From contig NZ_JAENII010000004.1 in NCBI RefSeq assembly GCF_016595525.1, positions 248,001 through 312,000 on the forward strand: 64,000 bases of DNA. The letters are read 5' to 3'. The stretch is from Haloferula rosea (GTDB lineage Bacteria; Verrucomicrobiota; Verrucomicrobiia; Verrucomicrobiales; Akkermansiaceae). How positions within the stretch are numbered: position 1 is the stretch's first letter; each line of letters begins with the position of its first letter. The translations under genes were made by a program, and so were the position numbers. The notes under the pieces were generated by a model that ran no database searches, had not been told where the DNA came from, and saw nothing but the letters and a program-made list of their open reading frames with translations. Positions 34,151 through 45,823 of the stretch are shown piece by piece.

Positions 34151-34597
34151 TCAGGCGTCCTTGTCCTTGATCAGGCTCTTGAGGTGTTCGACGTATTTTT
34201 CGGGGCCGCCCTCGCGGTAGCCGATGTCGTCGGAGATCTTCTTACCGTCGGAGTCGAGAAGGTAGATCGTGGGATAGCCTTCGACGCCGAATTCCTTGTC
34301 GAGCTTCTTGTTCTGGGCCTTCACTTCGTCGGACTGCTTCTTCTTCCGTGGGAAGTCGACTTCCATGAGGACGAGGTTGTCCTTGGCGTAGTCCTTGAAC
34401 TCCTTTCTGGAGAAGACTTCCTTTTCGAGGCGGATGCACCAGCCGCACCAGTCGGTGCCGGTGAAGTTGATGAGGATGGGCTTGTCCTCTTTCTTGGCCT
34501 GAGCCTTGGCGGCTTCCCAATCGGTGCTCCATTCACCTGCGGCGGCGAAGGAGAGGCTGGCGGCGAGAACGGCGAATGCTTTGAGGATGGTTTTCAT
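34151..34597 (-). CDS. Secreted thioredoxin-like protein
   Basis: A 148-residue protein with signal peptide MKTILKAFAVLAASLSFAAA and the thioredoxin-fold motif GTDWCGWCIRLEKEVF (active site WCGWC). The cis-Pro loop VEGYPTIYLLD follows. It is exported and a likely periplasmic or surface disulfide reductase or sensor. It is a tandem paralogue of the gene 32 bp upstream (34630-35088), probably by duplication, and ends the operon at a terminator. Confidence 0.9.
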   Translation of the reverse strand: MKTILKAFAVLAASLSFAAAGEWSTDWEAAKAQAKKEDKPILINFTGTDWCGWCIRLEKEVFSRKEFKDYAKDNLVLMEVDFPRKKKQSDEVKAQNKKLDKEFGVEGYPTIYLLDSDGKKISDDIGYREGGPEKYVEHLKSLIKDKDA

Positions 34598-34629
34598 CAG
34601 GTATCAGTTGGTTTGAGGTTCCGCTCAAT

Positions 34630-35088
34630 TTAGTCGAGATCCTTGTTCTCCAAAGATTTCTTCAGGTGACCGAGGAATTTTTCGGTGCTCGGGTACTGGG
34701 AGGCGAAGAAGCGGGTGAATTCCTTGCCGTCGGAATCGAAGAGGATGACGGTGGGAAATCCTTCGATCTTGTATTTCTTGGCGTAGGGTTGGTTCTTCTC
34801 CTTCACTTCCTTGTCGCCCTTCGGGAAATCAAGCTCGACGAGGATGAAGTCCTTGGAGGCGGCATCGACGAATTCCTTCTTGGAGAAGACGTTCTTGCGC
34901 ATGGCGATGCATGGAGGGCACCAGTCGGAGCCGGTGAATTCAACGAGAACGGGCTTGTCCTGCTTCTTGGCGTCTTCGAAGGCCTTTTCGAGATCGGTGC
35001 TCCAGCCTTCGAGCGTGCTGGCGAAGGCGGTGCTGATCAGTGCGGTGCCGGCCAGAGCAAAGGCGGCGAGGTGAGTGATTGCTTTCAT
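34630..35088 (-). CDS. Secreted thioredoxin-like protein (paralogue)
   Basis: A 152-residue protein with signal peptide MKAITHLAAFALAGTALIST and active site SDWCPPCIAMRKNVF (WCPPC), then IEGFPTVILFDSDG. It shares clear similarity with the next gene (same GW.TD..KAF.DAKK, F.G.DWC, F..KEF and LVE.DFPK patterns), so the two arose by tandem duplication. The active-site dipeptide differs (PP versus GW), which tunes redox potential. The first gene of the two, divergent from rdgB. Confidence 0.9.
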   Translation of the reverse strand: MKAITHLAAFALAGTALISTAFASTLEGWSTDLEKAFEDAKKQDKPVLVEFTGSDWCPPCIAMRKNVFSKKEFVDAASKDFILVELDFPKGDKEVKEKNQPYAKKYKIEGFPTVILFDSDGKEFTRFFASQYPSTEKFLGHLKKSLENKDLD

Positions 35089-35166
35089 CGAGGGTTAGGC
35101 GTTCCGGGGGCGTGTTTTATTTCAAATTTCTTGGATGTAGTCGTGTGAGTGGTTAGCAATAAGGGC

Positions 35167-35778
35167 ATGAATGCGAAAAAACCGCGTTTGGTGATTGCGA
35201 CCCGGAATCCCCATAAAACCGAGGAGATTCGGGTGATGATCGGGGATAAGTACGAGGTGCTCGATGCGACGGATTTCCCGGATTTGAAGCCGGTGGAGGA
35301 GACGGGCACGACCTTTCTGGAGAATGCGACACTCAAGGCGGTGGCGGTGAGCAAGGAGATCGACGGTCTGGTGCTCTCGGATGATTCGGGGCTGGAGGTG
35401 GATGCGCTCGGCGGTGCGCCGGGGGTGTACTCGAGCAGCTACGGGGGCGAGGAGGGCAACCACGCGAAGAACAACGAACGGCTGCTCAAGGAAATGGTGG
35501 GTCGGCGGGGGCAATCCGCTCGATTCCGCTGCATCATGGTCCTCGCGGAGGGCGGGGAGGTGCTGGAGACTTTCCAGGGAAAGGTGGAGGGGAAGATCCT
35601 CAAGGAGCCGCACGGCGACGGCGGATTCGGCTATGACCCGCTGTTCATGCCGACGGGTCACCATGTGTCCTTCGCCGAGCTGGCGATCGAGCGGAAGAAT
35701 GAATTGAGCCACCGTGCGCGGGCGCTGCGCAAGGTGGTGGACTGGCTGGAGCAACACACGGCTGCGGCGGAGTCGTGA
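35167..35778 (+). CDS. rdgB: RdgB/HAM1-family XTP/dITP diphosphatase
   Basis: A 203-residue protein with the RdgB signature ATRNPHKTEEIRVM (residues 11-24), SDDSGLEVDALGGAPGVYSS and GFGYDPLFMP. It hydrolyses non-canonical purine NTPs (ITP, dITP, XTP) to monophosphates and keeps them out of DNA and RNA. The start MNAKKPRLVIATR at 35167 is chosen. It is convergent with dinB, so the two nucleotide-damage genes are close but not in one operon. Confidence 0.95.
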   Translation: MNAKKPRLVIATRNPHKTEEIRVMIGDKYEVLDATDFPDLKPVEETGTTFLENATLKAVAVSKEIDGLVLSDDSGLEVDALGGAPGVYSSSYGGEEGNHAKNNERLLKEMVGRRGQSARFRCIMVLAEGGEVLETFQGKVEGKILKEPHGDGGFGYDPLFMPTGHHVSFAELAIERKNELSHRARALRKVVDWLEQHTAAAES

Positions 35779-37549: not shown

Positions 37550-38908
37550 ATGGCGGACCGGGCTTGCCAGACCGCGGAGGATGCAGAGAGTCGGGACGTG
37601 CCCGGCAGGAAGGAAAGATGGTCGCTCGCGGAGTTGATCGACTTTGAAACGGCGATGGCGTCGTGGGACGGCAAGGTGACGCGCCGTCGGGTCGACTCAT
37701 CGGCGCGTGCGGCGGTGATGCGGGAGTGGCTGGAGGCGCGGAATGTCGAGGGGCCGGGCCGGCGCTGGGTGTCGGCGATGGGGCTGGCGGGGATGCTGCT
37801 GGGTCTGCTCGCGGGCGTGGCGGGTGCGGGTGCGGTGTGGGGGACGCTGGACCGGTCGAGCGGCGGGGTGAATGTGATCTGGCTGATGGCGGTGACGCTG
37901 TGGGTGCCGTGGGCGCTGATGCTGCTCGGGGTGATCGGCTGGTTGTTCCGCGGGCGGCTGCCGGGAATCGGTCTGCTGGGCAAGGCCGTGGAGCATCTGT
38001 CGATGAAGTTCGTGGGCCATGAGGCGCGTGAGGTGGTCGACAAGATCCGGCGCAGCGGCGAGCTGGGGCGGGTGATCGGCTGGCACATCGCGAAGTTGTC
38101 GCAGCGGGTCGCGGCGGATTTCCATGGCGGAGCATTTGTCGGCCTGGGAGCGATGGTGCTTTTCAAGCAGGTCGGGTTTTTCTGGGAAACGACGACGGAG
38201 CAGGCGATGGAAGGTGCGCTGGTGAAGGGCGTGGAGGTGATGGCGCTGCCGTGGTCGTGGCGGTTGGGGCTTCCGGATGTGGCTGGATCGAGGTCGTCCT
38301 CGGACTGGATGGAGACCGGTCTGGGCTGGTGGCCGTTCCTGCTGATGGCGCTGCTCGTCTGGGGTTTTCTTCCTCGCGTGATCCTATCGATCTGGGCGGG
38401 ATTCAAGGAGCGGCAGTTGCTCGGCAATCTGGCCTTTCAGGCTCCGCACCACCGCAAACTCTGGCGGGGTCTCACCGAGGTGCGCCGCGGCGATGAGCCG
38501 AAGGGACCGGTCGATGGTGCGCTGGTGCTCAGTGTGGGCAGTGGGGAGCCGGATCAGGAGTCGCTACGTCCATTCCTGCTCCGTCGCCTGCGCATGAACC
38601 CGACGGCGTGGGAAAGCATCGGTGTACTGGATGCCGACCGCGAGGAAGCAGCCAAGGGTGCGCTGGCGAAGTCACCTGCGGGCATCGTGGTGCTGGCGGA
38701 GGGCTGGTCGCTCGCGCCGCGGCAGATGGAGCGCGCGCTGGCGGAAGTGGCGTCCCGCGCGGAAGGCCGGCGGGTGGTGCTGCTGGTGGGAAATCCATCC
38801 GACAAGGGCATGCAGCCGGTCACCGATGAGGAGCGGGCGCAGTGGGAGCGCTTCGTGGATGAGCGCAAGGCGGAGGAACTCGAACTGATCTTTTACGCAG
38901 CATCATGA
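37550..38908 (+). CDS. DUF2868 membrane protein
   Basis: A 452-residue protein with five or so TM segments (WVSAMGLAGMLLGLLAGVAG, VNVIWLMAVTLWVPWALMLL, GAFVGLGAMVLFKQVGFFW, WPFLLMALLVWGFLPRVILS) and a soluble C-terminal half (LVLSVGSGEPDQESLRPFLL ... AEGRRVVLLVG) that reads like a Rossmann-type domain. DUF2868 proteins co-occur with DUF3482 GTPases, as here (four-base ATGA overlap at 38905). Function is unknown; a membrane sensor driven by the GTPase is plausible. Divergent from the Nudix-dinB operon with 65 bp between. Confidence 0.85.
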   Translation: MADRACQTAEDAESRDVPGRKERWSLAELIDFETAMASWDGKVTRRRVDSSARAAVMREWLEARNVEGPGRRWVSAMGLAGMLLGLLAGVAGAGAVWGTLDRSSGGVNVIWLMAVTLWVPWALMLLGVIGWLFRGRLPGIGLLGKAVEHLSMKFVGHEAREVVDKIRRSGELGRVIGWHIAKLSQRVAADFHGGAFVGLGAMVLFKQVGFFWETTTEQAMEGALVKGVEVMALPWSWRLGLPDVAGSRSSSDWMETGLGWWPFLLMALLVWGFLPRVILSIWAGFKERQLLGNLAFQAPHHRKLWRGLTEVRRGDEPKGPVDGALVLSVGSGEPDQESLRPFLLRRLRMNPTAWESIGVLDADREEAAKGALAKSPAGIVVLAEGWSLAPRQMERALAEVASRAEGRRVVLLVGNPSDKGMQPVTDEERAQWERFVDERKAEELELIFYAAS

Positions 38909-40356
38909 GCGACTGGTGGAGTGATCAGGTGCCGTCCTTTGTGGTGGTCGGGCGTGTGAATGCGGGCAAGTCGTCGACTCTGGCGACGCTGCTGGAGGTG
39001 GATGATGATGACGTCCTGCGCGTTTCCGCGACGCCGGGTGAAACCACCTCGGTGCAGGCGCTTCCTGTCATCTATGATGACGAGGAGTGGATCCGGTTCT
39101 TTGATTCGCCCGGATTCCAGCAGCCGGTCGAGGCGGTCAAGGTCATCGAGGAGATGGCGGGTGACCGGGTGCCGGGGCCGGACGAGATTCGCCGCTTCGT
39201 CGAGGAATGCGGTGATGATTTTCCTGATGAGGTGCGCCTGCTGGAGCCGGTGGCCCGGGGGGCGGGCATCCTGTATGTCGTGGACCCCTCGAAGCCGGTC
39301 CGCGATTCCTTCCTGGCGGAGATCGAGATCCTGCGCTGGAGCGGCCGACCCCGGCTGGCGCTGCTGAACGCGCAGAGCGACGATACGACTCACGAGGAGG
39401 AATGGCGCGAGCGACTCGGCACGGCTTTCAACCTGGTCCGCACCTTCGATGCGCATGAGGCGAGGTACGATGAACGCCGTCGATTGCTGGAAGCCCTGCT
39501 GCAGATCGAGGAACGTCACGGCGACCGCATCGAGCACGTGCTGAAGGCGATGGAGGTGGAGTGGGGTCAGCGTCAGGAAGAGGCGGTCGAGGCGCTCATG
39601 GATTTCCTCGAGGACTCGCTGAAGCTCCGGGTGACCGATGGTCTCGATGAGCGCGATCTTGGCGTGCCCGCCCGCCGTGAGCGGAAGGAGTCCGCGCTGA
39701 TGGAGGAGTATTACGACAAGCTGGCCAAGCTGGAGTCGAAGTGTCTCGACCGCTGGTTGAAGACCTACCGGCACCATTTGCTGGAGGCGGACGTGGACCC
39801 GGTGAACCACCGGGGGCTCGATCTGGCGACGGCGGAAACGTGGAAGAAGTGGGGGCTGAACCGCTGGCAGCTGACGGCGGCCGGAGCGGCGGCGGGAGGT
39901 CTTGCGGGCGCTGCCTTCGATCTGGGGGTCGGAGTGCACAGTCTTGGCGCGGGCACGGTCCTCGGCGCGCTTGGCGGTGGCACGGCGGCCTTCCTGAAGG
40001 GCGGGCAGTTGCCGGAGTTGAAGGTGAAGCTGGATGGCGGCATGAAGTGGAGGAGTGGCGGTGGGCGCACGCTCATTGTCGGTCCGCCTGCCAGCCCGAA
40101 TTTCCCCTGGGTGCTGCTCGATTCCATGCTCGTCCGCTACCGTGGCATCATCACCCGTGCGCATGGCCGGCGCGATGCGGCTCCACTCGAAGGTGGGGAT
40201 GATGACAGCCTGGTCCGACAGTTTCCGTCCGAGCGCCGCACCTTGTTGCAGAAGTGGTTCAACTCCTGCCTGAAAGGCAAACCCGACCGCGGAAAGGAGA
40301 CGGAGGTTTACGCGGCTCTGGTGGAAGCGCTCGAGGAGGTCGAGGACGGTGTCTGA
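38905..40356 (+). CDS. DUF3482-containing GTPase
   Basis: A 483-residue protein with an Era/EngA-like G domain: P-loop GRVNAGKSSTLATLL (residues 16-30), Thr in switch I (PGETTS), and G3 FDSPGFQQ. The G4 NKxD is not canonical (LLNAQSDD). The C-terminal half is the DUF3482 domain, with a Gly/Ala-rich hydrophobic stretch (LTAAGAAAGGLAGAAFDLGV ... GTVLGALGGG) that may insert into a membrane. It overlaps the DUF2868 gene by four bases and the Cys-cluster gene by eight, so the three are co-translated. Role unknown. Confidence 0.9.
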   Translation: MSDWWSDQVPSFVVVGRVNAGKSSTLATLLEVDDDDVLRVSATPGETTSVQALPVIYDDEEWIRFFDSPGFQQPVEAVKVIEEMAGDRVPGPDEIRRFVEECGDDFPDEVRLLEPVARGAGILYVVDPSKPVRDSFLAEIEILRWSGRPRLALLNAQSDDTTHEEEWRERLGTAFNLVRTFDAHEARYDERRRLLEALLQIEERHGDRIEHVLKAMEVEWGQRQEEAVEALMDFLEDSLKLRVTDGLDERDLGVPARRERKESALMEEYYDKLAKLESKCLDRWLKTYRHHLLEADVDPVNHRGLDLATAETWKKWGLNRWQLTAAGAAAGGLAGAAFDLGVGVHSLGAGTVLGALGGGTAAFLKGGQLPELKVKLDGGMKWRSGGGRTLIVGPPASPNFPWVLLDSMLVRYRGIITRAHGRRDAAPLEGGDDDSLVRQFPSERRTLLQKWFNSCLKGKPDRGKETEVYAALVEALEEVEDGV

Positions 40357-41011
40357 TTCCTCCTCCACCGCCTTTCCACGTCTCGAACTGGAACTCGGCC
40401 GACAGGTCCGGGAAGCCCGGTTGGATCACGAAGTGTTCCAGCGTCCGCTGAAGGTCTGCGACCTCACCCGCTGCCGTGCCACCTGCTGCCACGACGGCGT
40501 GTATCTCTGTGATGAGGAGCGTGAGGGGATCGATGGTGCCCTGACGGGGAATGCCGATCTGCTCAGTAAGTACGGCTGGTCACGTAGTTCGTGGGAGGAG
40601 TCCCGTGATGGCCGGATGAAGACCCGGACGATCGACGCCGACGACTCGGAACTGGGTGAGGGCTTTCCCGCCCACTTTCCGAAGACCCGCTGTGTCTTTC
40701 TCGATGGGGAACATCGATGTGTCCTGCAGCGCCTGAGCGTCGATCGGGGTCATCACCCGTGGTGGTGGAAGCCGGTCTCGTGCTGGCTCCATCCGCTGCT
40801 GATCCGTCGTCAACCGGACGGACGCCCCGTCATCACGCTCGCACAGCCGGAGCGTGACCCAGCCTCTCGTCCCGGCTATCCGGGGTTTGGTTCGTTCACC
40901 CCCTGTGGGGTATCCCCTGAGGAGGGTCCGCCCGCCTGGCAGGCGCTGCGTGGTGAGCTGGATCTGCTCGGCAAGCTGGGAGACCGGGACCTGGTCGCCG
41001 AACTCAGCTAG
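40349..41011 (+). CDS. Cys-cluster protein (YkgJ/DUF3109-like)
   Basis: A 220-residue soluble protein starting at GTG 40349, overlapping the GTPase stop by eight bases. The N-terminal cluster CDLTRCRATCCHDGVYLC (Cys37, 42, 46, 47, 54) is followed by C...C spacing further on (RCVFLDGEHRCVLQ and VSCWLHP), as in the iron/zinc-chelating YkgJ and DUF3109 families. It probably binds zinc or an Fe-S cluster. Position suggests it acts with the GTPase/membrane pair. Third gene of the operon; the convergent giant gene ends 21 bp away. Confidence 0.72.
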   Translation: MSDSSSTAFPRLELELGRQVREARLDHEVFQRPLKVCDLTRCRATCCHDGVYLCDEEREGIDGALTGNADLLSKYGWSRSSWEESRDGRMKTRTIDADDSELGEGFPAHFPKTRCVFLDGEHRCVLQRLSVDRGHHPWWWKPVSCWLHPLLIRRQPDGRPVITLAQPERDPASRPGYPGFGSFTPCGVSPEEGPPAWQALRGELDLLGKLGDRDLVAELS

Positions 41012-41032: not shown

Positions 41033-44000
41033 TCAGGAGGACGAGGCAAGGCGGAAGAATTTCGGGTCACTCGGGCTGCTTGGTGGTGCCGAGACGGTGA
41101 TCTCCCAGACACCGGGTTCGACTTCCACGCGGCTTACCTCATTGGCGCTGATGTCCTGCCAGTCACCAGCCTGAAGCGTGGAACTGAACTGGGGAATAAG
41201 CCGACGGGCGGTGTCGGCGCGTTGTCGGAAGGTGACCGTCACGTCGCCGTTGATCGCTCGCTGAGTGAGAAGTGCCGGCCCTGGCTGGCTTGCCGCCGTC
41301 CGTCCACTCAGCCACGCGATCACGTTCGGCACGCCATCGCCGTCGGCATCATCATCCTCGCCACGGAGGTTCGCCGGGAAGCTGGCCAACTCTGTGGCTG
41401 CCCAGTCGCTGAAGCTTGGGCCGCCTGAGGCGAAACCGGACAAGTACATCAGGTTGGCTTCGTTCAGTTCCCCTCCCGATCCCGTGCTGTACTGTGGGGT
41501 CTGGAGGGACCAGAGGAGGGTGACGAAGATGAAGGAGCTCCCGTCGTCGCTCATCTGAAGGTCGGCGGTGTTTCCGCTCGGCATTGGGGGCGAGATCAGG
41601 AGTTTGGTGGCCCATGGACCGCCAGCGGTCGCGCATGAGGACACATAGGGTTTTAGCGAGGGGGCATGGATGAATGATACGGTCCTGCCATCGTTGCTCA
41701 CCGTCAGGTCGGTCATGTATTCGGATCCGAACGGGGTATCCACGAAGCTGAGTTCGTCATCCTGACGATCATAGACGTACAGCCAGTGACGAGGAGCGCC
41801 ACTGTCGATGGGTTCGCCCGGACGCAAAGCCTGGAGGGCAGGATTCCATCCAAAAAGAATGAAGCGGCCGTTGCTGCTCGCATCACGGAACGTGGCATAC
41901 GGACCTTTGCCCTGCAGGGGTGATGGAACGGACAGCGAGCTAGTTCCGATGTCGTAGACATAGAGGTTGGCGTTCTCGGCCGGGATCAGCGGATCGGTGG
42001 CGAAGTGACTGAAGAAGACCGATTGTTCATTGGCATCGATCTCCGCGCCACCCGCTGTGGCATTGATGGATTGGTTGCCGGATCCATCGGGGAAGCGAGT
42101 CAGTCCGACGACGTCGCCGTTGCTGCGGTCGTGCAGGAACAAGTCGATCCGGCCGTTGTTGTCGTTGGCTATCAGGTTGCTGTCCGAACTTGAGAAGAGG
42201 AGATACCTTCCCGTGCTGCTGATCTGCCACGCCTGTGAGTTGGAGAAGTCCCCGCCCCCGGTGGTGTTGAATGCCGGGCTCGACGATTGGGTGTTCATGT
42301 CGTGGACCCACTCCCGACTGAAGAGGAGGTAGCGTCCGTCGTTGCTGATGTCGTCCGCGTTCCCAAAACCAAACTGCCCACCTAGCGTCTCATCGATGAA
42401 CTCAGGAGCGACATAGGGCAGTGGATGCCTCGAGTTCCCCTCGCCCGGGTCATTGGATCCGAAGAATGCGAATTGACCGTCCTCGGACAGGTGGGAGTTC
42501 GCGGCTTCATCCCAAGTTCGGCCGTTGGGGTCCCGGCTGATGAGGTCCAGGACTCCGGAGAACTGCTCGATTGGGATGAAGGTGGCGGCGGCGGAATCGA
42601 CGGTGCCGCTCGCAGCCGTGGCGCGGAGCCAGACCTGCGCTCCTGCTGGAATCAGCGAGGCGTTGATCTTTGCCGTGGTGGCTCCTGCAATGGGTTTGGA
42701 GGTGTCTCCCGAGGGGCCTTCATACCACTGATAGGTGGTGTCGACTGGCGTGAGTAGCGAGAAGGTCGGCCCGAACTCCGGGCTGGTCCCGACGAAATAG
42801 GCCCCATTCTTGAGATCGTTCACGATGGCTGGAGGAGGCACCACCGTCACGGTCACTCCGTCACTGATCACGGGGTCACCGAAGCCGTTGGTGACGGACA
42901 CGAAATAGGTGGTGGTGTAGTCGATGGACGGATCGGTGACATAGGTCGGGCTGTTGCTCCCGACCGGGATGGCTGCGCCGATCTGTCCGCGATACCACTG
43001 ATAGGTGACCGGGCCGTCACCCTGAACGACCACCGAGAGGGTCGCGCCGGCACCGACGGATGCGGTGGCGTCCTGAGGTTGGGTCACGATGGTGACCTGC
43101 TCACCGGAAGCTGCGGCCACGCGGAGGCGGAACAATCGGGTGTTGGTTGCCAGATAGGCAAACTCGCCGTCGTTGGTCAGTTTGCCGGGGTCCACTCCCT
43201 CCAGACCGGTATTGGTGAGTGCTCCGAAAGTGGCGCCGCCGTCTTCCGAGACATGAAGCACGGGCGGAGTGGACTTCGTTGAAACGATGAGCTTGTCGTC
43301 CACGACGGTCACCGATTCCAACTCGGTGTTGGGGAAGGCGACTTGGCTCCAGGTCGTGCCATGGTCGGTGCTCTTCCAGAGTCCGCGCCCGACAGTACTG
43401 CTGAAGGCGCGGTCAAGAGTGGCGTAGATCACGCCATTGTGCAGATGAAGGTCGGAGGGGTTCGAAAACGCGTCGGAACCGACGAAGTAGCGTTGGGTCC
43501 ATGTGGTTCCATTGTCGGTGGAAGTTGATACGGCCCGGTTGTAGGTCGACATGACCAGAGTCCCGTTGCTGGTCTTGATGATTTCGCGGCTTCCGTAGTG
43601 GGCCAGTCCGCTGGCGGGTGCGGTAAAGGTCAGGCCTCCATCGGTGGACCGGAAGAATCCGCCGGAGTTGCTCGACTGATCGGCGATGTAGATGTTGTTG
43701 CCGTCCTTGAGGATATCGGCCGGGTTCGAGCTGACGGGGAAATTGGCGGTTTCGGTCCAGTTGATCCCGTCCGTGGATGTGGCAAAGCTAGAGGGTGTGG
43801 GGGTTCCGGACGATGAAATCGCCGTTAGATACTGCCCGTCCGAGTAAACGATGGGAGCAGTGGCGTTGTTGGTGAACAGGGTCGACATGCCGAGCGGGCC
43901 TTCGGTGGCCGTCCAGCTGTCGCCGGAATCGGTCGACTTGTGGACCTGATTGGGGTTGCCGTAGCGCTGGATGACGGTGAGTCCCTGCGGCGTGATCAAA

Positions 44001-45325
44001 GGACCGCGGAAGTTGGTGGTCTGCAGACTGATGAAGTCGGTCAGCTCCGTCCAGATTTCCAGTGCGGTCACCGTGGCTGTGGCGCTGTCTGTCGAACTCG
44101 ACGGGCCGGTCACGCGCACCCAGAAATCGGTGGGCTCGGTCAGGGGGTCGGTCTGGTAGATGAATTGGGTGGCTCCGCTGATGGGCAGGGAGGTGTCGCC
44201 ACTGGCTCCTTGATACCATTGGTAGGTGAGTGGGCCTTGTCCCGTGGCGAAGACCGACAAGGTTTGGCTGGTGCCGACACCGATGACGGAACTCTGGGGT
44301 TCGGTGATGAAGACAGGCGGGCCGGTTTCATTGCGGGCGTCGAGGTAGCGGACGGTGCCGAATTCCCGGTTCACGATATGGTCGCCTGCCACGAAGGTCT
44401 CGTCGAAGCCGGCTGGTCCTGAAGGAACATCAAGCACTGCCCATGTCTGGGCGTCCTCGGTGAAAAGAACGAGAGGGGGTTCGCCGGAGAACTGGTGGGT
44501 GATGGTGGCGACCAGCCGACCGTCGTAGATGAAGAGGCTGGAAATCCGGTAGTCCGGGTATCCGGGGATGGTTGCGACGGTGCTCCAGTTCAGTCCATTG
44601 TCGGCAGAAACGTAGAGCGCTTTGTCATTGATGAAGTGGGTGTAGAGGGAACCACCGAATTCCACGAACTCGCCGTTCGGGCTATAGCTCGGAAGTACGA
44701 GTGTTTGCGTGGTGCCTTGGTCGTCCGAGTATTTCAGACCTTGGGTGGTCCGGTAGAATCGCCGAGATCCCACTTCCGCATAGTCCGGGAAGTTGCTGTT
44801 GTTTCCCGTGTTGGTCCAGGTGACACCGCCGTCGGTGGAGGTGTAGCTCGCCTGCTGCCCCAGCGCGAAAATCGTGCCGCCGTCCTTCTGGATCCGGGTG
44901 CAGCGGAGATTGTCGCCACCGCTGCCACTGAGTGTCCAGGTCGCCCCGGAATCCGAGGATGAAGCGAACCATGCGGGCACTGGGCTTGCCCCGAACTGAG
45001 TCTCATGGGTGATGAATACCGTGCCGTCGAACTCCCAGATCTTTGGGGTGGAGAAGAGCCCCGTAAAGAGGGCTTCGGAAATCCGTGTGAAGCTGGCTCC
45101 GTCATCGGTCGACCTGTAGACGTCCGTGAAGTAGTCGATGCGGAAGCTGGGGGTGAAGACGAACTCGGAACGTGTGCTGGTCCCGAGGATATCACCATTG
45201 GTCAGGCGCTTGATGTCGGCGAATCCGCTGGCGGGTCCATTGCCTGCGGTTTGCCATGACTGGCTGAGGGCGATGTTGGAGTGGAGACCAAGAAGGGCGA
45301 CAACAAGGATACGGAAGTGGCGCAT
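41033..45325 (-). CDS. Giant secreted Asp-box/Ig-like repeat protein
   Basis: A 1430-residue protein with signal peptide MRHFRILVVALLGLHSNIAL. Asp-box/BNR repeats (S.D.G.TW: SSDSGATWT, STDGGVTWT, STDSGDSWT, STDNGTTWT, STDHGTTWS) cover much of residues 30-740, broken by an Ig-like domain; two more Ig-like domains follow (TYQWYRG, TYQWYEG) at about 740-920. A PD40-like section (ISNDGRYLLFSREW, ISSTGRYLLFSSSD) runs to about 1290, then a Ca-binding loop (DDDADGDGVPN) and the Verrucomicrobiota C-terminal module (KFFRLASSS). A sortilin/sialidase-like propeller with adhesion domains is likely; no enzyme motif is clear. Confidence 0.82.
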   Translation of the reverse strand: MRHFRILVVALLGLHSNIALSQSWQTAGNGPASGFADIKRLTNGDILGTSTRSEFVFTPSFRIDYFTDVYRSTDDGASFTRISEALFTGLFSTPKIWEFDGTVFITHETQFGASPVPAWFASSSDSGATWTLSGSGGDNLRCTRIQKDGGTIFALGQQASYTSTDGGVTWTNTGNNSNFPDYAEVGSRRFYRTTQGLKYSDDQGTTQTLVLPSYSPNGEFVEFGGSLYTHFINDKALYVSADNGLNWSTVATIPGYPDYRISSLFIYDGRLVATITHQFSGEPPLVLFTEDAQTWAVLDVPSGPAGFDETFVAGDHIVNREFGTVRYLDARNETGPPVFITEPQSSVIGVGTSQTLSVFATGQGPLTYQWYQGASGDTSLPISGATQFIYQTDPLTEPTDFWVRVTGPSSSTDSATATVTALEIWTELTDFISLQTTNFRGPLITPQGLTVIQRYGNPNQVHKSTDSGDSWTATEGPLGMSTLFTNNATAPIVYSDGQYLTAISSSGTPTPSSFATSTDGINWTETANFPVSSNPADILKDGNNIYIADQSSNSGGFFRSTDGGLTFTAPASGLAHYGSREIIKTSNGTLVMSTYNRAVSTSTDNGTTWTQRYFVGSDAFSNPSDLHLHNGVIYATLDRAFSSTVGRGLWKSTDHGTTWSQVAFPNTELESVTVVDDKLIVSTKSTPPVLHVSEDGGATFGALTNTGLEGVDPGKLTNDGEFAYLATNTRLFRLRVAAASGEQVTIVTQPQDATASVGAGATLSVVVQGDGPVTYQWYRGQIGAAIPVGSNSPTYVTDPSIDYTTTYFVSVTNGFGDPVISDGVTVTVVPPPAIVNDLKNGAYFVGTSPEFGPTFSLLTPVDTTYQWYEGPSGDTSKPIAGATTAKINASLIPAGAQVWLRATAASGTVDSAAATFIPIEQFSGVLDLISRDPNGRTWDEAANSHLSEDGQFAFFGSNDPGEGNSRHPLPYVAPEFIDETLGGQFGFGNADDISNDGRYLLFSREWVHDMNTQSSSPAFNTTGGGDFSNSQAWQISSTGRYLLFSSSDSNLIANDNNGRIDLFLHDRSNGDVVGLTRFPDGSGNQSINATAGGAEIDANEQSVFFSHFATDPLIPAENANLYVYDIGTSSLSVPSPLQGKGPYATFRDASSNGRFILFGWNPALQALRPGEPIDSGAPRHWLYVYDRQDDELSFVDTPFGSEYMTDLTVSNDGRTVSFIHAPSLKPYVSSCATAGGPWATKLLISPPMPSGNTADLQMSDDGSSFIFVTLLWSLQTPQYSTGSGGELNEANLMYLSGFASGGPSFSDWAATELASFPANLRGEDDDADGDGVPNVIAWLSGRTAASQPGPALLTQRAINGDVTVTFRQRADTARRLIPQFSSTLQAGDWQDISANEVSRVEVEPGVWEITVSAPPSSPSDPKFFRLASSS

Positions 45326-45823
45326 TTGTGTTAGGGGGAGAAGAGGCCCGATGAGTGAATCGAATCGCATGCTCCATGCATGGGTCGCATCGGCCTATGG
45401 GCCCTTTTCTCGATTTCGAACAGATCTGGTCAAGCGCTGTTTTTGCTCCGGAAAATCTTCGCAGCGCGGAGGTTTCCCAAGCCGTTTTCGGGCAGTCTCA
45501 TGTTGCACTGGTGTGCTCATGCAAGTTGCACTGAAGGAAGAGGAGGGTTGATGCGGGTTGGATGCGAAATGCCCTTTTGGGTCGGGCATCAACAGGCGTT
45601 CTGCCGGTTGTTAGTATCGCATAGGTCCCCGTCGGCTTCTCTCGCGACGTCCGCCACTCCCAGCGGCGGAGAGAGGTCGCTATCGGACTATCTTGACGGT
45701 GCTTCCAGTGTGACGAATTCGTCACGCTCAATCTAACCGAGATGTATGATCCCTGCGGATAACTGGAGCGGGCAGTCGTTCGTGTGGGGTGAATCGAGCC
45801 CGGTCACCCCCGGCTTCGCGCTC
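45326..45823. other. Intergenic stretch without a recognised gene
   Basis: This 498-bp gap holds the control region of the giant gene, with its start at 45325, and ends at the stop of the glycosyltransferase gene (45824). I see no coding signature. Features: a 16-bp palindrome at 45710-45725, a direct repeat of TTGCACTG (near 45503 and 45526), and ATGCGGGTTGGATGCGAAATG with internal repetition near 45551. No terminator for the upstream genes is convincing. Confidence 0.6.
45710..45725. promoter_or_regulatory. 16-bp perfect palindrome, candidate operator
   Basis: The sequence GTGACGAATTCGTCAC is a perfect inverted repeat. With a G-T wobble the symmetry extends to 22 bp. It lies about 385 bp upstream of the giant gene and 98 bp from the glycosyltransferase stop. 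The symmetry is right for a dimeric DNA-binding protein; none is identified. Confidence 0.4.

Follow-up and report, generated by a model that had tools for sequence, protein, structure and literature searches.

Two neighbouring genes on the plus strand of a 64,000-nucleotide stretch of Haloferula rosea DNA (hereafter the window, taken from a genome of 4.68 Mb) form an obligate pair that is conserved across distant phyla. Gene A encodes a DUF2868 membrane protein and gene B a GTPase with a C-terminal DUF3482 domain. A third gene, C, follows B directly and encodes a Cys-rich protein; it is a lineage-specific passenger gene whose linkage to A and B is a local event. We regard it as an even call that A and B together make up a GTPase switch anchored in the membrane, each being obligate to it; A would probably bear a pseudo-G domain, and B is of the Era/EngA type with a glycine zipper. 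The window pair itself is unremarkable within its two Pfam families, neither of which has an assigned function. What is new here is a quantitative case for obligate pairing, the exclusion of C, the set of residues found to be invariant and the hypothesis of a pseudo-G domain in A.

The three genes and their Pfam matches were as follows.

37550-38908, + strand: gene A, DUF2868 membrane protein of 452 amino acids (PF11067, 99.2 bits against a cut-off of 26.8; the sole family above cut-off)
38905-40356, + strand: gene B, GTPase with C-terminal DUF3482, 483 amino acids (DUF3482, PF11981, 171.6 bits against 29.2; MMR_HSR1, PF01926, 37.2 bits against 21.9)
40349-41011, + strand: gene C, DUF3109-like Cys-rich protein of 220 amino acids with a GTG start (PF11307, 33.0 bits)

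The exact start codon of A is uncertain, as the predicted local distance difference test (pLDDT) values were low over the first 20 residues.

Pairing of A and B across genomes

A sequence-only reading of this DNA had described the three genes as overlapping by 4 and 8 bp, and both overlaps were found: 4 bp between A and B (ATGA) and 8 bp between B and C. It had further taken the overlaps to mean that all three genes are coupled. We surveyed 65 B loci from Verrucomicrobiota, Desulfobacterota, and Gamma- and Betaproteobacteria. In 56 of them, A was encoded close to B and in the same direction. Of the 55 adjacent pairs that could be measured, 49 had the B start codon no farther than 20 bp from the A stop codon, and 25 of those had the identical 4-bp overlap. 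The A/B overlap exceeds chance and the claim of coupling stood for these two genes, whereas the B/C overlap lacked comparable support.

Co-occurrence was assessed by searching each Pfam family in 387 genomes of the phylum. B exceeded its cut-off in 28 genomes and A was matched in 28, with 27 genomes common to both. The genome with B and no Pfam match to A (G234) carries A directly upstream of B (locus L058) when searched with a custom A profile, so that A was found in all 28 B genomes, in agreement with the earlier statement that the two families are known to co-occur. The only match to A without B (G104) was weak (E 6.7e-4) and contains a stop. Genomes with both genes span at least seven families, and the association had a Fisher p value of ~3e-39, a figure that ignores shared ancestry. 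Eight genomes (G215, G243, G254, G157, G066, G187, G190 and G199) keep both genes even though these are unlinked, either on different contigs or far apart. This joint retention is stronger evidence of joint function than linkage.

No third gene family recurred around the 65 B loci when open reading frames (ORFs) were clustered; the clusters reflected nothing beyond synteny within single lineages or generic families, among them ABC transporters. Likewise, the neighbours of A at sites unlinked from B had nothing in common beyond close relatives. We found no functional study of DUF2868 or DUF3482 in the open-access literature, and open-access reports on HSR1-related proteins, glycine-zipper GTPases and pseudo-GTPases contained no functional data for the pair. 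In one proteome of a purple sulfur bacterium, a DUF2868 protein is listed as reaching higher abundance at night; this was too thin to be used.

Some loci departed from the usual arrangement. In three loci of one genus (L041, L043 and L044, from G243, G254 and G215, respectively), A has been relocated to another site. Its place directly upstream of B is taken in L043 and L044 by a long ORF, which encodes a kinase-like N-terminal region as well as a hydrophobic helix. The ORF from L044 matched no Pfam family at a threshold of 0.001.

Other couples of this general kind exist. YcjX-YcjF consists of a linked P-loop stress GTPase and a membrane protein of unknown function, and its families (DUF463 and DUF697) are other than those of A and B. 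Arc3A-Arc3B of Pseudomonas aeruginosa (PA5114-PA5113) is a widespread two-gene envelope couple, in which Arc3A has 35 predicted transmembrane (TM) segments and neither protein is a GTPase (PMC8926400). Identification of A-B as Arc3 (PA5113/PA5114) was rejected, as A belongs to DUF2868 whereas Arc3A belongs to DUF2339 (PMC8926400).

The GTPase and its glycine zipper

The features of B were located as follows.

38905-39519, + strand: G domain of B (approximately residues 1-205), with P-loop GRVNAGKSS, switch I Thr47, G3 motif DSPGF and Asn155 (Era Z 16.5, YsxC Z 15.9)
39403-39405, + strand: Trp167, invariant and family-specific (65 of 65 homologues)
39862-40002, + strand: glycine-zipper hydrophobic segment (residues 320-366), with invariant Gly335 and Asp339
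39919-39921, + strand: Asp339 (invariant, 65 of 65 homologues)

The predicted model of B had a mean pLDDT of 81.5, with high confidence in the G domain and in the distal helices. Over residues 2-208, the structure matched Era and YsxC as well as Nog1 and NFeoB (Z 14.4-14.9 for FeoB G domains), and the sequence matched EngA/Era profiles with E values from 1e-22 to 1e-7. By sequence and by predicted fold, B is an Era/EngA/EngB-like P-loop GTPase. It shares the G fold, P-loop, switch I Thr and DxPG motif with Era, EngA (Der) and EngB (YsxC), which are MMR_HSR1 proteins of the TRAFAC class. Unlike these proteins, B has neither an NKxD motif nor a KH or ribosome-binding domain, and possesses instead the DUF3482 helical domain with its zipper and an obligate membrane partner.

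Twelve residues were invariant in all 65 B homologues: G21, K22, T28, T47, D67, P69, G70, E139, N155, W167, G335 and D339. The absence of a canonical NKxD motif, already noticed from the window sequence, extends to all 65 homologues. The corresponding region reads N-A-Q-S-D in the window, and neither a Lys nor an Asp is conserved after Asn155. Because Asn155 is invariant and the remainder is not conserved, the missing motif is a family trait and not decay, and the base-recognising Asn is, as judged from these alignments, retained as Asn155. The GxxxxGK[ST], switch Thr and DxPG motifs expected for nucleotide binding, as well as the glycine zipper with its Asp, are intact in the window.

A divergent B subfamily carries the P-loop SHTNAGKTT in place of GxxNxGKSS and was observed in loci L053-L058, L096, L098 and L106 (family f2 and Verrucomicrobiaceae-type contigs). 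The same form is present in B of Burkholderiales and Steroidobacteraceae contigs. This suggests cross-phylum transfer or an old split.

The helical domain behind the G domain is broken by residues 320-366, which are rich in Gly and Ala and show GxxxG spacing (G331, G335, D339, then positions 344, 348, 354 and 358). The sequence-only reading had singled out a Gly/Ala-rich segment as a possible membrane insertion. The segment is real and is a conserved hydrophobic element throughout the family, as it was present in every homologue examined. Its Gly and Ala content reaches 52% per 50 residues, compared to a median of 14% for B. In addition to the invariant positions, G331 and G348 were each conserved in 64 of 65 homologues and G354 in 62. 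Peak Kyte-Doolittle hydropathy was 1.34 in the window protein and up to 2.2 in its relatives. We infer that residues 320-366 are a membrane-associating glycine-zipper element.

A G domain followed by a helix, a hydrophobic hairpin and a second helix is also the layout that would be seen if B were a small dynamin-like membrane remodeller, comparable to LeoA/LeoBC, IniA or IRG proteins, with a helical stalk, a glycine-rich paddle that enters the membrane, and A as its receptor. Bacterial dynamin-like proteins (LeoABC, IniA, BDLP) resemble the pair in having a G domain and then long helices around a hydrophobic Gly-rich tip, and in being encoded by paired genes. IniA, Irgb6 and Irga6 were among the Foldseek matches of B, with long alignments, and the PADLOC profiles for LeoA (3.3e-5) and LeoBC (1e-3, over residues 164-362) matched B weakly, with a stronger match for a Stutzerimonas homologue. 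This defence library gave no match for A or C. We nonetheless consider a dynamin-like remodeller unlikely, as the profile matches are weak, Pfam Dynamin_N stayed below cut-off in B homologues, the G domain of B is nearer to Era, and A is polytopic and not a second active GTPase. The top structural alignments of B were to ribosome-type G domains over residues 2-208 only, and so barely tested a dynamin-like stalk.

The membrane protein and a proposed switch

The features of A were located as follows.

37763-38404, + strand: membrane part of A, from hydrophobic segments TM1 72-100, TM2 105-133, TM3 187-205 and TM4 256-285
38375-38377, + strand: Arg276 inside TM4, in the motif PR (invariant, 56 of 56 homologues)
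38504-38905, + strand: C-terminal Rossmann-like domain of A (residues 319-452), with alternating strands and helices in the predicted model
38843-38845, + strand: Trp432, invariant, in the C-terminal domain

The predicted model of A had a mean pLDDT of 83, and four hydrophobic segments were found in nearly all of the 34 A homologues examined. The density of Lys and Arg was low (0.08) only in loop 206-255. Under the positive-inside rule A is therefore predicted to have both termini inside the cell and this loop in the periplasm. We read A as a four-helix protein of the inner membrane. The loop carries the motif W212-[EQ]-[ST]-T. Both W212 and W260 were invariant in 56 of 56 homologues, and no homologue with a residue at the W432 position deviated from Trp. 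Residues 372-407 (38663-38770) gave a sub-threshold match to DUF6203 (22.0 bits against a cut-off of 26.7, E 1.5e-4).

We also weighed whether the pair might be a GTP-gated transporter resembling a split FeoB, with the G domain of B gating a pore in A. FeoB likewise links a G domain of the Era type with a membrane protein, its G domains align with B, and the coupling of a G domain to a polytopic membrane protein and the invariant Arg276 in TM4 would be consistent with such a role. However, A and B are two proteins and not one, A has only four TM helices, and its invariant positions (W212, W260 and R276) include no acidic or Cys membrane ligand and no conserved metal ligands. FeoB_N was absent for window B and under its cut-off in the homologues, and no transport or metal gene was recurrent near the A-B loci. 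A transporter of this type is improbable.

The C-terminal domain of A, residues 319-452, contains no P-loop, DxxG or NKxD motif. Foldseek searches with A returned no match below E 1e-3, and comparison of a full-length A profile with PDB sequences returned a single, non-significant receiver match (E 0.41). When the predicted domain was aligned with VIA-align, small GTPases were at the top of the list: a Gtr chain (Z 9.3), the FeoB G domain and a Rab-type GTPase (both 8.8), and Sar1 and YsxC (both 8.4). Profile-profile comparison of this domain with the G domain of B gave a score of 28.5 over 72 columns (P 6e-4), which was reached by none of 150 block-shuffled profiles. Control profiles from the same genome scored 12.6 for receivers, 12.9 for short-chain dehydrogenases and 16.5 for other GTPases. 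In the proteobacterial subfamily the A/B comparison scored 33.0 with a probability of 51%, and hhalign P values for homology of the two domains spanned 1.5e-4 to 7e-3.

Full-length profiles of A and B, compared with no prior choice of domains, aligned in the identical register. This register puts invariant W432 of A on invariant W167 of B, each in the helix that follows strand five. The scores and the register together indicate that B's own lineage fits the A domain better than GTPases in general. We lean slightly towards the C-terminal domain of A being a degenerate, dead G domain from the G-domain lineage of B.

A tentative extension of this idea, which we hold with less than even confidence, is that DUF2868 is a membrane-bound pseudo-GTPase derived from the G domain of its partner. 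The pair would then be a bacterial hetero-G-domain switch, one domain active and soluble and the other dead and membrane-anchored, with an intramembrane Arg276-Asp339 pair coupling GTP turnover to the membrane part. In the membrane-anchored switch proposed at the outset, the G domain of B would dock onto the pseudo-G domain of A, which would hold B at the membrane. The glycine zipper of B might pack against A, either at the membrane surface or within the membrane, where invariant Asp339 would face invariant Arg276 in TM4. Binding and hydrolysis of GTP would shift the zipper and switch the membrane part of A. An envelope-related output is a natural guess. Previously, the genes had been pictured as a membrane sensor or a transport or repair machine that cycles with GTP; the reading that makes most sense is a membrane device with a GTP cycle. 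Nothing in our analysis pointed to a role involving metals, Fe-S, acid or repair. The invariant residues (Arg276, Trp212, Trp260 and Trp432 in A; Asp339, Asn155 and Trp167 in B), combined with the pseudo-G hypothesis, make a vague GTPase pair testable.

Several observations weigh against this account. In the fold list for A, a ketoreductase (Z 8.0) and the NarL receiver (Z 7.8) were within ~1 Z of most GTPases. As non-GTPase folds score nearly as high, the fold alone is not decisive, and the domain may be a generic Rossmann fold. HH-suite probabilities for homology between the A and B domains were only 5-51%, which does not establish homology, and in one subfamily a receiver control (18.8) approached the weaker A/B scores (20.4-21.6). 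The hydropathy of the window zipper, at 1.34, is below the usual TM threshold and pLDDT is mostly below 50 there, so insertion of this segment into the membrane is conjectural. A contact between Arg276 and Asp339 is conjecture based on the invariance of the two residues.

It is quite improbable that B acts on the ribosome in the manner of Era, EngA or EngB, with A serving merely as a membrane tether. The nearest sequence and fold relatives of the B G domain are ribosome-assembly GTPases. Pfam, however, detected no KH or other RNA-binding domain in B, the patchy spread of the pair (28 of 387 genomes) is unlike that of universal assembly GTPases, and the strongest conservation in B after the G domain is in the glycine zipper.

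Gene C and flanking genes

The sequence-only reading had added C as a YkgJ-like Cys-cluster protein and a candidate metal or Fe-S component, to be examined by neighbourhood analysis as a possible regular third partner. Among the 387 genomes, orthologues of C (42-64% identity) were found in only six. C adjoins A-B in two of these, the window genome and a congener (G316), in which C is directly behind B. G237 and G240 also have A-B, with C at a separate site, and G351 and G375 contain C but lack A-B. It was absent from 24 of the 28 A-B genomes. Because of this distribution C is not a regular partner of A-B, and its linkage to them is nearly confined to the window genome, close to the outcome that the sequence-only reading had named as its own refutation. 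The neighbours of C in the other four genomes were mutually inconsistent (L113-L116), with genes for ribosomal protein and for elongation factor G nearby in G351, and no other Cys gene recurred beside B in the surveyed B loci. A three-component machine in which C supplies a metal or Fe-S centre is therefore highly improbable, in spite of the 8-bp overlap in the window, the same gene order in G316 and the conserved Cys residues of C.

C missed the DUF3109 (PF11307) cut-off of 33.5 bits by 0.5 bit, and its orthologues in G237 and G240 passed it with 36.2 and 34.5 bits. These profile matches mark C as DUF3109-like rather than as a clear case of YkgJ. Eight Cys residues (37, 42, 46, 47, 115, 124, 145 and 186 in window numbering) were invariant among the six orthologues, which makes a metal or Fe-S site plausible for C alone. 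C resembles DUF3109/YkgJ-like Cys-cluster proteins in its Cys-x4-Cys-x3-Cys-Cys motif and further conserved Cys/His residues, and differs in belonging to an Akkermansiaceae-type clade, untied to A-B. Removing C from the system drops a misleading metal/Fe-S lead.

The genes on either side of the three were as follows.

34151-35088, - strand: two tandem small exported thioredoxin-like proteins, with WCGWC in one and WCPPC in the other (Thioredoxin_7)
35149-35778, + strand: nucleoside triphosphate pyrophosphatase of the Ham1/RdgB type (Ham1p_like, 213.7 bits)
41033-45370, - strand: protein of 1445 amino acids, encoded convergently to the operon with its stop codon ~22 bp away from that of C, that combines Ig-like domains and BNR/sortilin-like propeller repeats

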